DNA from: a virus
DNA: 27,995 nt
Virus record (IMG/VR): IMGVR_UViG_3300044639_000521
Span: 1 to 27,995 of that record
Reading direction: 5' to 3' (one strand)
The translations under genes were made by a program, and so were the position numbers. Below are positions 17,232-21,272 of the stretch, piece by piece; the first letter of the stretch is position 1, and each line of letters opens with the position of its first letter. The notes beneath the pieces are model-generated. The model saw nothing but the letters and a program-made list of their open reading frames with translations, was not told the DNA's origin and did not search any database.

Positions 17232-19157
17232 TCAACGAGTGAAGGCGGAATCGCTGGCACCCCTATCTATAACCGTCTTTTCAGCCACCGTCGTGACCGA
17301 AATGCTGTTCGGATCGATGAGGATGATCTGATTCCTTCGGGCAAAGATGTCCCTGTTCTGTGGAACCACGGTGAGCGACAACTCGGTCTTACCATCGTCA
17401 AGATACTCAATCTTGAAGTTCCTCAAGAAGATCTTGCCCGTGGTGTAGTCGATGGTCCCCGTGTTCCTGCTGAGGTAGACCTTGGTGGTGCCGACCTGCT
17501 TGTAGACCCTGATGTTCCCGTATCCGTCATCGTCTACGAACGCATCGACACTCGGCTTGACCACGGCGGTCGATGTCGTATCGGTGTAGCCGAAGATGTC
17601 GCTCGACAGGATCGGGGTGTAGCCGTCCACGGGATGGAGTAGGGCATTATCGAAGTTGACCGTATAGGGAGCAGCCCTGCCGATGTTCGGTTCAAACCTC
17701 TTCGTGAGGGTGATGTCCGTGCTGTTGGAGTTGACGGCGGGTGATGAGCCGTCGATGGTGGACGAGAACTTCGACATGCGGAAGTTCCGCTGAAACAGAC
17801 CGAGGTAAGAGTCTCCGAATGTCTTGATGAGTTCCACGACCCTCGACTCGACACCCGTGCTGTTCAAGGTGGTCTTCGACTCGTCGTAGTAGACCTTGAC
17901 CGATGGGTTGATGTAGAGAAGGTCGGGATCCACGACCTCGGGAGTGATGGTGACTAGGTTCTTCTCGCCGAGGATGGTGTTCTCAATAGCCCTCTTCTCG
18001 GCGGTAGAGAGTCGGGACCCGACCCTCGGCTTGATGCTGATGAAGACCTTGCCGTATTGGGGCGGGTCGTTCTCCTCGCCTCCCCAAATGAAGAAGGATT
18101 CAGCCCTCTGTGCGTACTCACGACCGAGGATCGCCTTGTAGTCATCCGAGGTGACCGCCCTGTCCTGCGCCTGATAGTTCCTCGGCGCATAGAAGCGGAT
18201 GGATTCGGTGTCCTCCGAATCCTCGCCTCCGAAGGAAACCTGCACATCGTCGTTATCGTCAGTTTGAATCCTGACTTCGGTGACTCGACTGTCGTTGCAG
18301 GTGATCGCCCTCTTCACCGAGGTCTCATCGAAGCCGATCCCGTTGCCCTCGCTGCCGTTCGTGACGAGGTAGCGGATCGTGACGATGTTTCCGTTCTCGA
18401 CCGCCTTGCCGACGATCCCGTCGCCGAAGTAGATCTCCCAAAAGCCCTCACGGCTCTCCTGCACGAAGAAGGCGTTGGAGGTCGAGTTGAGCCTGTTGAT
18501 GTCCGTGGACCTGTTCCACAGTTCCTGCGATCCCGTGCTGTCAGTCTGAGACCTCTGCACGAACAGGGAGATGGTGTCTATGTCCACGCTCCTGTCGGGG
18601 ATCGTGAACATAGCATTCGTGCCGCCTTGGGTGTTCGCCACGAAGGACACCTGCTTGAGGTATCCTTGGTAGAGGACGATGTCCCTGACGATGTTGTCGC
18701 CTCCCCTGCGAACCGCCTTGTAGTTGTCGAGGTTGACGAAATTCACGCTCTTGCCGTTTGTGTCCTTGCCACGGAAGATCGTGCCCCTTTCGATGAACTG
18801 CTTGCCTTGGATCACCGTCTGCGTGAACACCGTCTCAACGCCGCCAGGAGTGAGGATCGCATCCACGACGAGCCTAGCCGCCTTCTTGGACCGTGGGGTG
18901 TATCCCAAGTGCTTCGCCAAGGAGACCACCGACTCCCTGATCGCAGCCGAGTCGATGAAGGACTCGTTCGCAGCCATGTTGGCGTAGAAAGCCTGATAGT
19001 GGGTGTTGTATGCGAGGAGGTCGAGGATGATGTTGAGGGCTGAACCCTCAAAGTTGTAGTCCTTGAACTGATCCTGCCCCCTAAGGTATTCCTTGAGGTT
19101 CGACTTGATCTCGTCAAAGCCGAGTGCGTTGATGGGGGTGTTTGAGGTGTTTCTCAT
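17232..19157 (-). CDS. 6: Baseplate wedge subunit gp6
   Basis: 641 residues (T4 gp6 has 660). The N-terminus contains LGFDEIKSNLKEYLRGQDQF near 12-31 and LDLLAYNTHYQAFYANMAAN near 45-64, followed by IRESVVSLAKHLGYTPRSKK, the signature of T4-type gp6 and the wider baseplate-J family. Further on are VTSDDYKAILGREY near 330 and ISIKPRVGSRLSTAEKR near 363, matching the J-family core. In T4, gp6 dimers form the inner ring that holds the wedges around the hub and drives baseplate opening. The start ATG overlaps the gp25 stop by four bases (19154-19157), with GAGG eight bases upstream. The gene is intact. A TATAGATA box lies near its 3' end, upstream of the next gene. Confidence 0.92.
   Translation of the reverse strand: MRNTSNTPINALGFDEIKSNLKEYLRGQDQFKDYNFEGSALNIILDLLAYNTHYQAFYANMAANESFIDSAAIRESVVSLAKHLGYTPRSKKAARLVVDAILTPGGVETVFTQTVIQGKQFIERGTIFRGKDTNGKSVNFVNLDNYKAVRRGGDNIVRDIVLYQGYLKQVSFVANTQGGTNAMFTIPDRSVDIDTISLFVQRSQTDSTGSQELWNRSTDINRLNSTSNAFFVQESREGFWEIYFGDGIVGKAVENGNIVTIRYLVTNGSEGNGIGFDETSVKRAITCNDSRVTEVRIQTDDNDDVQVSFGGEDSEDTESIRFYAPRNYQAQDRAVTSDDYKAILGREYAQRAESFFIWGGEENDPPQYGKVFISIKPRVGSRLSTAEKRAIENTILGEKNLVTITPEVVDPDLLYINPSVKVYYDESKTTLNSTGVESRVVELIKTFGDSYLGLFQRNFRMSKFSSTIDGSSPAVNSNSTDITLTKRFEPNIGRAAPYTVNFDNALLHPVDGYTPILSSDIFGYTDTTSTAVVKPSVDAFVDDDGYGNIRVYKQVGTTKVYLSRNTGTIDYTTGKIFLRNFKIEYLDDGKTELSLTVVPQNRDIFARRNQIILIDPNSISVTTVAEKTVIDRGASDSAFTR
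17264..17271 (-). promoter_or_regulatory. Possible late-promoter box TATAGATA upstream of gp7-position gene
   Basis: The minus strand reads GGTTATAGATAGGGG inside the last codons of gp6, 53 bases before the start at 17211. It has one mismatch to T4 TATAAATA. Confidence 0.42.
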
Positions 19158-19546
19158 CTGAGCCTCGTAACGGCTACGGTGGTCGAGAAGACCCGCTGCA
19201 CATTCTTGATGGTGAAGCGAATCGTGATCCTGATCTCATTCCTATCTATGACATCCGCCACATCAACCACGGCGGTGTTCACACGGGGCTCGTAGTTGCG
19301 GATGGTGTCGGAGATCCTCTTCTTCACCTCAACGACCGTGAGTGGATCCACCAACTCAAAGAGCATGTCCTGTATCCCCGAATAGACCTCGGGGTGGAAC
19401 GGCTTCTCGTTCCTCTTGAGGAGGATCAGGTTCTTCAGCGACCGCTTGATCGCCTCCTCGTCCTTCCTCACAGCCACATCCCCCGACAGAGGGTTGCGGT
19501 CGAAGTTTATGTCGAGGTCGAAGGATGTATTTTCTACCTTAGCCAT
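19154..19546 (-). CDS. 25: Baseplate wedge subunit gp25
   Basis: 130 residues from ATG 19546 (MAKVENTSFDLDINF); T4 gp25 has 132. The alternative GTG at 19552 adds only two residues and lies inside the Shine-Dalgarno GAGGTGAGC, so 19546 is preferred. Conserved features are DRNPLSGDVAVRKDEEAIKR near 16-35, LILLKRNEKPFHPEVYSGI near 41-59, LFELVDPLT near 64-72 and VEVKKRISDTIRNYEPRV near 73-90. These are the gpW/gp25 lysozyme-like fold, which here is structural. In T4, gp25 forms the core bundle with gp6 and gp53 and primes sheath assembly. It starts three bases before the 3' end of the GAF-like gene and overlaps gp6 by four bases. Confidence 0.95.
   Translation of the reverse strand: MAKVENTSFDLDINFDRNPLSGDVAVRKDEEAIKRSLKNLILLKRNEKPFHPEVYSGIQDMLFELVDPLTVVEVKKRISDTIRNYEPRVNTAVVDVADVIDRNEIRITIRFTIKNVQRVFSTTVAVTRLR
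19243..19250 (-). promoter_or_regulatory. Possible late-promoter box CATAGATA upstream of gp6
   Basis: The minus strand reads GTCATAGATAGGAA inside gp25, about 86 bases before the gp6 start. It is the same core as the box before the glycosyltransferase. Coding context makes chance likely enough to keep confidence low. Confidence 0.3.
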
Positions 19547-19548
19547 GC

Positions 19549-20178
19549 TCACCTCAATGCGAGTTCAAGTTCGATGTAGTCCTTTGCCTGTGAGAAGACC
19601 AACTCAAAGGAATCCTGCCTCGACGGTGTCTTCTCCGCACCGAACCATTCCAAGGTGATGAAGCCGATGTACAGGTCGCCTTTCATAATCGGGAGGACGG
19701 AGTACGCCGTGATCCCGTTGGCGTTGTTGTACGAGCGGAAGTAGCCTTCCCTCATGTCCATGGACCAATAGAGGCTCGGCATGTCCATCCGCATGGTCTC
19801 CACCAAGTCCCAAAACATGGTCACCAATATGTTCTGTAGGTTGGCACCGTCATACGGGATGCCACGCTCGCACGACTCATGCGTGATGCTGAACTTCTTC
19901 ATCGGGGTTCCGTCTAGGAACTTGCCTCCGTTGTGGAAGTGACCGATTCTCGCCCTATCGGCACCCGTCTTGATCCGCAGAGCCGTAAGGGTCTCATGCA
20001 CAACGGTGTGCTTGCTCTGAAACGCAGAGTTCTTCGGGCTGATCGATGCCTCCTCGACCGCCTTCCGCTCCTGAGCCTTGATCTTGACCTTGCTGTAGAA
20101 AAGACCCGCAAAAATGCCGCCCAAGCCGCCCGACACCGCAAGTCCGATGTCAAACCAAAGAGACAGGTTTGCCCACAT
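19549..20178 (-). CDS. Membrane-anchored GAF-like protein in baseplate operon
   Basis: 209 residues from ATG 20178, six bases after the PAAR stop with GGGGG nine bases upstream. A longer reading from 20235 would overlap the PAAR gene by 52 bases and is not preferred. Residues about 6-28 (WFDIGLAVSGGLGGIFAGLF) form one hydrophobic Gly-rich membrane segment, followed by the basic KVKIKAQERK, so the bulk should face the cytoplasm by the positive-inside rule. The rest looks like a GAF-type sensor fold: TGADRARIGHFHNGGKFLDG near 71-90, FSITHESCERGI near 96-107 and a final strand YIGFITLEWFG near 176-186. Similar short proteins occur in environmental T4-like phages without known function. Its place between the spike tip and gp25 suggests a role at the membrane during tail attachment or DNA entry, or superinfection exclusion (inference). 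No ligand can be assigned. Confidence 0.72.
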   Translation of the reverse strand: MWANLSLWFDIGLAVSGGLGGIFAGLFYSKVKIKAQERKAVEEASISPKNSAFQSKHTVVHETLTALRIKTGADRARIGHFHNGGKFLDGTPMKKFSITHESCERGIPYDGANLQNILVTMFWDLVETMRMDMPSLYWSMDMREGYFRSYNNANGITAYSVLPIMKGDLYIGFITLEWFGAEKTPSRQDSFELVFSQAKDYIELELALR

Positions 20179-20183
20179 CCTAG

Positions 20184-20471
20184 TCAACCCCCGCAGAACA
20201 CATTGTTGCTTCCCCTTGCACATGCGGATCCGCAATGCACGGGATCTCCGACCCTAGCCGCAGGACGGCTATTGATGAAGACCGAGGAGGAGCCCTCTGC
20301 GGTCTTGCTAGTGTGGCAGGAAGGACCACAGCAATGCGTAGCCCAACCATCACCCTTCCTATGCCACCCAAGGCTGTTCACGAAGACATTGTCCGAGCCT
20401 TGGATGTTGTTCCTCGGCGGGAAGCAGGAGTGACCCGAGCAGATGTCCGTGTGTCGATGTGCGGCTGGCAT
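20184..20471 (-). CDS. PAAR-domain spike-tip protein, Cys-rich
   Basis: 95 residues; ATG at 20471 preceded by GGGGGAAGT. It has the repeated PAAR pattern: HTDICSGHSC near 7-16 with GSDNVFVN near 25-32, then HCCGPSC near 46-52 with GSSSVFIN near 60-67, then SRPAARVGDPVHCGSAC near 68-84 with GSNNVFCGG at the end. PAAR proteins fold into a cone that caps the central spike (T4 gp5.4, VgrG tips) and usually hold a metal through His and Cys. This copy has nine Cys and several His, more than is usual. It follows the Ig-like gene and precedes the GAF-like gene. Its predicted place is the tip of the gp5 beta-helix. Confidence 0.92.
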   Translation of the reverse strand: MPAAHRHTDICSGHSCFPPRNNIQGSDNVFVNSLGWHRKGDGWATHCCGPSCHTSKTAEGSSSVFINSRPAARVGDPVHCGSACARGSNNVFCGG

Positions 20472-20480
20472 ACTTCCCCC

Positions 20481-21272
20481 TCAAGGACAGTTGTCGGAGA
20501 AGTATCCCCTCCCCTTCATCGTGGTGAGGTACTCCTCGTTTGTCACAGGCTTACCATCGATGAAAAACTGATTCCTGATATTTAGGATGAACTCGTCTCT
20601 GTCGGAGGACCAGTTGTTCATCGTCTTGATGGTGAAGATCCCGTCGATGTACCTTGAGGTCAGTTCCGAATCGAAAGCCCTAGCGGTGAACACGATATCC
20701 TTGTCAATACCGAATCCGCCCTTGTGAAGGGATGCAGATCCCCTCTCAGCGTAGTTCTGCTCGGTGAACTTCTTTGGTCCCTGATCCCCATAGTCGAACC
20801 CATAAACTTCCTTAGCCTCTTCAGCCAACGGATCCTCGGGAAGACCTTCGGGGGGCACACCAAACTCTTCAGGAAATATGTCATCAAGGTCATCGACCCT
20901 ACCGAATATGTTTCCCGTATCGATGTTCAAGGTCAGACTTGGTGGGAATGTGCCGCTAACTATGGCGAACTTCAGCGATCCTCCTGTAACTGACGGAGAT
21001 CCTCTCTGCGAGACATATGTCGCTCTCAACCTGATAGACAGGGAGCATGATTGTGTCTCGTCTCCGTCACGCAGGAACCTCTGTTGTTCGTAGATGGGTC
21101 TGTTTGGGAATGTCTCGTTGTAGTCCTTGTTCAGAACCGCAGGTGACAGCCATTCGATCTCGTCGTAGGTTGACGATGTCGAGTTGTCCTGTTCCTTGAT
21201 GTTGAGTTCACCGAAGTTCCTGTCGGGGTAGTAGAACTCAATCGGGTTCTGTCCCGTCATCCCGAAAGGCAT
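20481..21272 (-). CDS. Putative structural protein with Ig/cadherin-like domain
   Basis: 263 residues; start ATG 21272 shares its A with the TGA of the upstream gene, with GGGAGAG as ribosome site. Near 97-127 is FAIVSGTFPPSLTLNIDTGN followed by IFGRVDDLDD, the Gly-x-Leu-Pro-x-x-Leu-x-x-x-x-x-x-Gly-x-Ile-x-Gly pattern of the He_PIG group of Ig-like domains. An acidic Pro-rich loop near 130-155 (PEEFGVPPEGLPEDPLAEEA) interrupts it before further beta strands (FTARAFDSELTSRYIDGIF). The C-terminus is polar (NIRNQFFIDGKPVTNEEYL). Proteins like this accompany hub genes in cyanophage-type T4 relatives. A hub or spike decoration role is inferred from position. Codon use and G+C (about 50%) are lower than in adjacent genes. 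Confidence 0.72.
   Translation of the reverse strand: MPFGMTGQNPIEFYYPDRNFGELNIKEQDNSTSSTYDEIEWLSPAVLNKDYNETFPNRPIYEQQRFLRDGDETQSCSLSIRLRATYVSQRGSPSVTGGSLKFAIVSGTFPPSLTLNIDTGNIFGRVDDLDDIFPEEFGVPPEGLPEDPLAEEAKEVYGFDYGDQGPKKFTEQNYAERGSASLHKGGFGIDKDIVFTARAFDSELTSRYIDGIFTIKTMNNWSSDRDEFILNIRNQFFIDGKPVTNEEYLTTMKGRGYFSDNCP
20579..20585 (-). promoter_or_regulatory. Possible late-promoter box CTAAATA upstream of PAAR gene
   Basis: The minus strand reads ATCCTAAATATCAGG inside the Ig-like gene, 108 bases before the PAAR start at 20471. The core equals the boxes before gp48 and the 113-residue gene. The long distance and coding context lower confidence. Confidence 0.3.

Follow-up and report, generated by a model that had tools for sequence, protein, structure and literature searches.

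A membrane-tethered GAF-domain protein from a T4-like baseplate cluster as a possible regulator of phage lysis timing

In phage T4, the timing of lysis is set by the holin together with its antiholins. The holin, T (6PSK), consists of a single membrane helix followed by a GAF-like globular domain, with the N-terminus inside the cell and the globular domain in the periplasm. The N-terminal amphipathic helix of T is essential for hole formation; its globular domain has a regulatory role and is not needed to form holes (PMC12162936). In T5-type phages, the gene of a T holin lies directly before the endolysin gene. Domains of the GAF fold are otherwise represented by the bilin-carrying domains of phytochromes and cyanobacteriochromes, by the GAF domains of cellular GAF-GGDEF proteins and, in phages, by uncharacterised "GAF domain-containing" proteins, such as gp129 of the Bacteroides phage BS-TP1 and its counterparts in uncultured Caudovirales. 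Literature searches did not retrieve any publication that deals with GAF proteins of phages in lysis. Here we describe a phage protein that combines an N-terminal membrane helix with a GAF domain (hereafter TM-GAF) and argue, tentatively, that it is a putative membrane-tethered, ligand-sensing regulator of lysis timing and not a structural part of the baseplate.

The TM-GAF gene (19549..20178, minus strand; 209 aa) was found in a window of 27,995 nucleotides, namely the whole stretch of the viral record IMGVR_UViG_3300044639_000521 that was analysed, and its surroundings form a T4-like baseplate and tail cluster. The open reading frame starts with an ATG at 20178, which is accompanied by a purine-rich, Shine-Dalgarno-like stretch, and ends with a stop codon at 19549-19551; a TTG at 20235 was rejected as the start since the homologues start at the ATG or close to it and the additional upstream codons show no conservation. 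Of the two neighbours that flank the gene on the same strand, the upstream one, which encodes the PAAR spike-tip protein (20184..20471, minus strand; PF05488, 4.9e-12), ends 5 nt before the ATG, so that the initial annotation was right in placing PAAR directly before TM-GAF. The downstream one encodes the baseplate wedge protein gp25 (19154..19546, minus strand; PF04965, 6.7e-10; phrog_261, 1.2e-39) and is followed by gp6 (phrog_219, 2e-165). An overlap with the gp25 region, also proposed initially, is absent if gp25 starts with the ATG at 19546, which leaves a 2-nt gap after the TM-GAF stop; only a start at the upstream GTG (19552) would produce a 4-nt GTGA overlap. Farther upstream, the window encodes a 263-aa protein (20481-21272) that has no family match and carries a GxFPPSLxLNIDTGxIxG motif; proteins of this type are found between gp5 and PAAR both in relatives that possess the TM-GAF gene and in most of those that lack it, and are probably structural. 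A glycosyltransferase-like protein (1474-2676; phrog_13126, 1.2e-24) adjoins the tail-fibre genes.

Scans of IMG/VR returned 33, 44 and 311 relatives of the TM-GAF protein, with at most 80 loci taken per scan, and a further scan led by the Leptospira-phage member returned 187, so that the family is widespread in phages, with hundreds of IMG/VR contigs; the loci fetched contained at least 96 distinct TM-GAF genes. The dN/dS ratios between TM-GAF and relatives at 85-97% identity (0.075-0.12) indicate that the gene is under purifying selection. With homologues in 96 distinct loci and such ratios, the reading frame can be accepted as a real gene, and a chance ORF was rejected. The best conserved part of the protein is the family signature HFHNGGKFLDGTPMKKFSITHESC (FHNGGKFxDGxxMKxxSxTHESC; residues 80-103, 19870..19941, minus strand), which lies on the first beta hairpin in the model described below; H82, N83, G84, G90 and S97 are invariant among 46 TM-GAF sequences. 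Database searches with the TM-GAF protein gave no match in Pfam, NCBIfam or PADLOC and nothing meaningful among PDB sequences, and two pattern scans of 84,980 bacterial and archaeal genomes revealed no relative at that sensitivity. Identity with a known defence protein was dismissed, given the lack of a PADLOC match. The only PHROG matches, phrog_30125 (2.5e-6) and phrog_14038 (9.7e-6), are families of unknown function that align with residues 55-120, i.e. with the N-terminal half of the GAF domain only.

The assignment of residues 52-208 (19555..20025, minus strand) to a GAF domain relies on an AlphaFold2 model, on its structural alignment with VIA-align and on a chain of sequence matches that leads to a cellular GAF-GGDEF protein. 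The model, computed from 46 sequences, has a pLDDT of 90.8 and supersedes a preliminary one that was based on 16 sequences (pLDDT 68.4). It comprises helices at residues 3-44, 48-71, 119-130, 146-153 and 188-208 and strands at 75-86, 92-103, 158-166 and 169-178, which yields the order typical of the GAF fold: a helix, a beta pair, helices, a second beta pair and a C-terminal helix. In VIA-align, residues 49-209 could be superimposed onto bilin-binding GAF domains with Z scores of about 15-17 over 142-146 residues, in particular onto 7lsd_A with a Z of 16.8 and an rmsd of 2.6 over 146 residues; PDB fold families missing from the VIA table were not counted as excluded. The phage "GAF domain-containing" proteins share the fold as well (BFVD, E down to 9.5e-16) and, where checked, the membrane helix, but their gene neighbourhoods, where known, differ from that of TM-GAF. 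Thus, structure prediction and fold search bear out the initial suggestion of a GAF-like domain, for which a structure unlike the GAF and PAS folds would have been fatal. Independently, at the sequence level, tblastn connects TM-GAF with a protein of phage Mel-JY01 (2e-8), the latter with gp12 of the Nonlabens phage P12024S (2e-15), and gp12 with the GAF domain of a bacterial PAS-GAF-GGDEF gene (3e-8). Since P12024S gp12 scores 17.0 bits against the Pfam GAF family PF01590, below the cut-off of 22.4, and TM-GAF itself is unmatched, the membership in the GAF family rests on the fold. Compared with the GAF domains of bilin-binding and GAF-GGDEF proteins, TM-GAF shows a sequence identity of 9-15% and lacks an output domain. 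Two entries of the phage collection, MT837964.1 and MT835688.1 (L258 and L259), look, on visual inspection, like bacterial chromosomal DNA with RNase R-, SmpB- and pyrimidine-type genes; they were rejected as phage contexts and, carrying bacterial PAS-GAF-GGDEF genes, are useful only as the GAF link.

The single N-terminal membrane helix that had been proposed for this protein is supported by hydropathy, which is moderate (1.57) over residues 9-27 (20098..20154, minus strand), by the charge count and by the model, where it is embedded in the helix 3-44. The helix is glycine-rich and is followed by a stretch rich in lysine and arginine: in 24 of 26 family rows, the tail before the helix contains 0-1 K/R residues, and the 15 residues after it contain 3-9, the two exceptions being L145, where the match begins past the helix, and P12024S, which is ambiguous. 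This charge bias predicts that the N-terminus is outside and the GAF domain cytoplasmic, as was assumed in the initial annotation.

The architecture of TM-GAF, a single membrane helix and then a GAF-like globular domain, is that of T4 holin T. Foldseek aligns TM-GAF with the T chain of the T4 structure (6psk_T) at 3.5e-6, which identifies the T globular domain as GAF-like, and T holins in BFVD match TM-GAF at 4.7e-6 to 5.5e-5. The two proteins differ, however, in several respects: TM-GAF has only about 8 residues before the helix and, accordingly, lacks the N-terminal cytoplasmic amphipathic segment of T; its predicted topology is opposite to that of T; and its conserved motif is a different one. 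The T holin family PF11031 was not detected in TM-GAF or in ten long relatives. An hhalign comparison of the TM-GAF family with T holins gave a weak value of 0.026 (reported both as P and as E); the score of 20.9 exceeded those of all 100 column shuffles (maximum 19.0), but the signal is too weak to claim T-holin membership by profile. TM-GAF resembles the regulatory part of T rather than the whole holin.

In the clade of the window, the TM-GAF gene is linked to gp25 and not to an endolysin gene. Among loci that had been picked for carrying the TM-GAF gene, gp25 is visible in 90 distinct ones; TM-GAF is upstream of it in every case, at a median distance of 46 nt, and immediately so in 89, and this linkage spans TM-GAF identities of about 25-100%. 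The gene is thus far from being absent from all related baseplate clusters, and its late, co-directional position, as inferred initially, is corroborated. One rearranged locus (L145, 989-2971) shows the order GAF, 20481-type protein, PAAR and gp25, with about 1.1 kb between GAF and gp25. In the converse test, gp25 alone served to select 54 loci, 52 of which had enough upstream sequence: TM-GAF was present in 35 and absent in 17, these counts referring to loci and not to independent events, as several contigs are closely related. In the 17 GAF-less loci, PAAR mostly abuts gp25, and gp5 does so in two; ten GAF-less records contain no TM-GAF copy elsewhere in the contig (the records may be incomplete), and the GenBank relatives ACP17 and V45v66 also lack the gene. 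Hence TM-GAF is not present in all related baseplate clusters; it is an accessory gene with a preferred place, not an essential baseplate part. In one of the GAF-less loci (L312), the gene directly 5' of PAAR (2067-2675) specifies a protein of 203 aa that combines a membrane helix at its N-terminus, preceded by a tail of the outside type, with a PAS domain (PF08447, 4.1e-12); its architecture matches that of TM-GAF except for the sensor domain. This is a single locus, for which no relatives were found in phages or IMG/VR.

Outside this clade, TM-GAF homologues adjoin or are located near endolysin genes in five lineages, represented by P12024S and L232, P12002L, LE1, L171 and BS-TP1. In P12024S, gp12 directly precedes the peptidase endolysin gp13, which is followed by the holin gp14 (phrog_3427; a weak match to PF11351, the family of ICP1 TeaA). 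The L232 homologue, 87% identical to P12024S gp12, is followed by a gene for a protein with two membrane helices and then by the gene of an unrelated amidase. In Polaribacter phage P12002L, the homologue P12002L_0031, identified via structure (BFVD) and not via sequence, so that its homology is less certain, is sandwiched between a two-helix gene (0030) and the endolysin (0032). In Leptospira phage LE1, LE1-0048 comes directly before an M23 endolysin; in L171, a two-helix gene resembling that of L232 is followed by the homologue and, directly after it, the endolysin; in BS-TP1, gp129 is three genes away from the endolysin gp126. Most of the endolysin-linked homologues are thus accompanied by a separate holin-like membrane gene. 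The similar small two-helix proteins of L171 (4667-4927) and L232 (5677-5931), located beside a GAF gene and an endolysin gene, have no Pfam match and possibly represent an unrecognised holin family. Different endolysin families are involved, which suggests that the linkage evolved, or was retained, on more than one occasion. In three further lineages (Mel-JY01, LMM01 and cr127_1), the homologues show no link to lysis genes. As for the clade of the window, a search of six long relatives for Amidase_2, phage lysozyme and M15 endolysins retrieved none, and SLT domains were seen in four of the six, in two of them above the cut-off. In one of these relatives (G001:C1:132551-133006; L239), a small transglycosylase of the SLT type that has a signal-like helix at its N-terminus is encoded near a dUTPase gene; this SLT-type protein, the only endolysin candidate found in the clade, is about 80 kb away from the GAF gene and has no holin-like gene adjacent to it.

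How should these contexts be reconciled? The near-perfect linkage to gp25 over such a wide range of identities could also mean a baseplate role, with the protein serving as a membrane anchor or adaptor for baseplate assembly, or recruiting gp25 and gp6 to the inner membrane, and being kept near gp25 by this interaction. We regard such a helper function as unlikely: about a third of the gp25-selected relatives (17/52) manage without the gene, mostly with PAAR abutting gp25, no copy is found elsewhere in the ten GAF-less records, and the homologues in other phages adjoin endolysin genes instead of baseplate genes. The same accessory pattern disfavours the initial idea that the protein provides a site at the membrane where baseplates assemble, and the existence of relatives with an otherwise equivalent cluster minus this gene, along with the homologues in lysis cassettes of other phages, speaks against a required role in the virion or in baseplate assembly. 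The initial proposal that TM-GAF belongs to the virion and is ejected from it into the inner membrane when a cell is infected is suggested by its position among virion genes only; with the gene being accessory in otherwise equivalent clusters, this appears very improbable.

A small inner-membrane protein of accessory occurrence might also act in superinfection exclusion, another of the initial ideas, or in immunity, i.e. as a late product that blocks DNA entry of later phages, with GAF as an effector or oligomerisation module, and P12002L_0031 does match the SieA-like phrog_7745 (E 0.0014). This match, however, is a weak one confined to the globular part, the GAF domain is predicted to be cytoplasmic, and the repeated linkage to endolysins would be left unexplained, so that we consider exclusion rather improbable. 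A true T-like (class III) holin, where TM-GAF itself would make the lethal hole, would fit both the architecture and the gene order before the endolysin seen in T5-type phages, but it is a still more doubtful option in view of the missing PF11031 match, the short segment before the helix (the amphipathic helix being essential in T; PMC12162936), the opposite predicted topology and the separate holin-like gene beside most of the endolysin-linked homologues.

The lysis-timing reading is favoured by the linkage to non-homologous endolysins in separate lineages, by the regulatory nature of the GAF-like domain of T and the placement of T before the endolysin in T5-type phages, and by the accessory status of the gene combined with the TM-PAS protein beside PAAR in the GAF-less L312. 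It is weakened by the linkage to gp25 in the window's own clade, by the three lineages without a lysis link, by the TM-PAS protein being known from a single locus and by the weak profile similarity to T. Mainly because the SLT-type endolysin candidate of the clade is so distant and has no holin-like neighbour, we hold our preferred reading with somewhat less than even confidence. Under the scenario of lysis timing, TM-GAF would oligomerise in the inner membrane via its glycine-rich helix, the GAF domain would bind a ligand or a partner protein inside the infected cell, and the bound state would delay or trigger hole formation by a separate holin, thereby tuning the timing of lysis; in this clade, the late baseplate operon that carries the gene would provide for its late expression. 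The ligand-gated step envisaged initially would persist in this scenario, with lysis as its target.

A broader and more speculative extension, to which we assign a low likelihood, is that in many tailed phages a membrane-tethered GAF (once PAS) sensor reads a cytoplasmic small molecule and, through a holin encoded separately, sets lysis timing; the regulatory domain of T4 T would then be a distant relative that became fused to a hole-former. The TM-GAF family has no assigned function, and its cultivated members include those of P12024S, P12002L, LE1 and Mel-JY01. Should other phages rely on a domain that senses a ligand and is anchored in the inner membrane, the lysis decision would have an input of a new kind.
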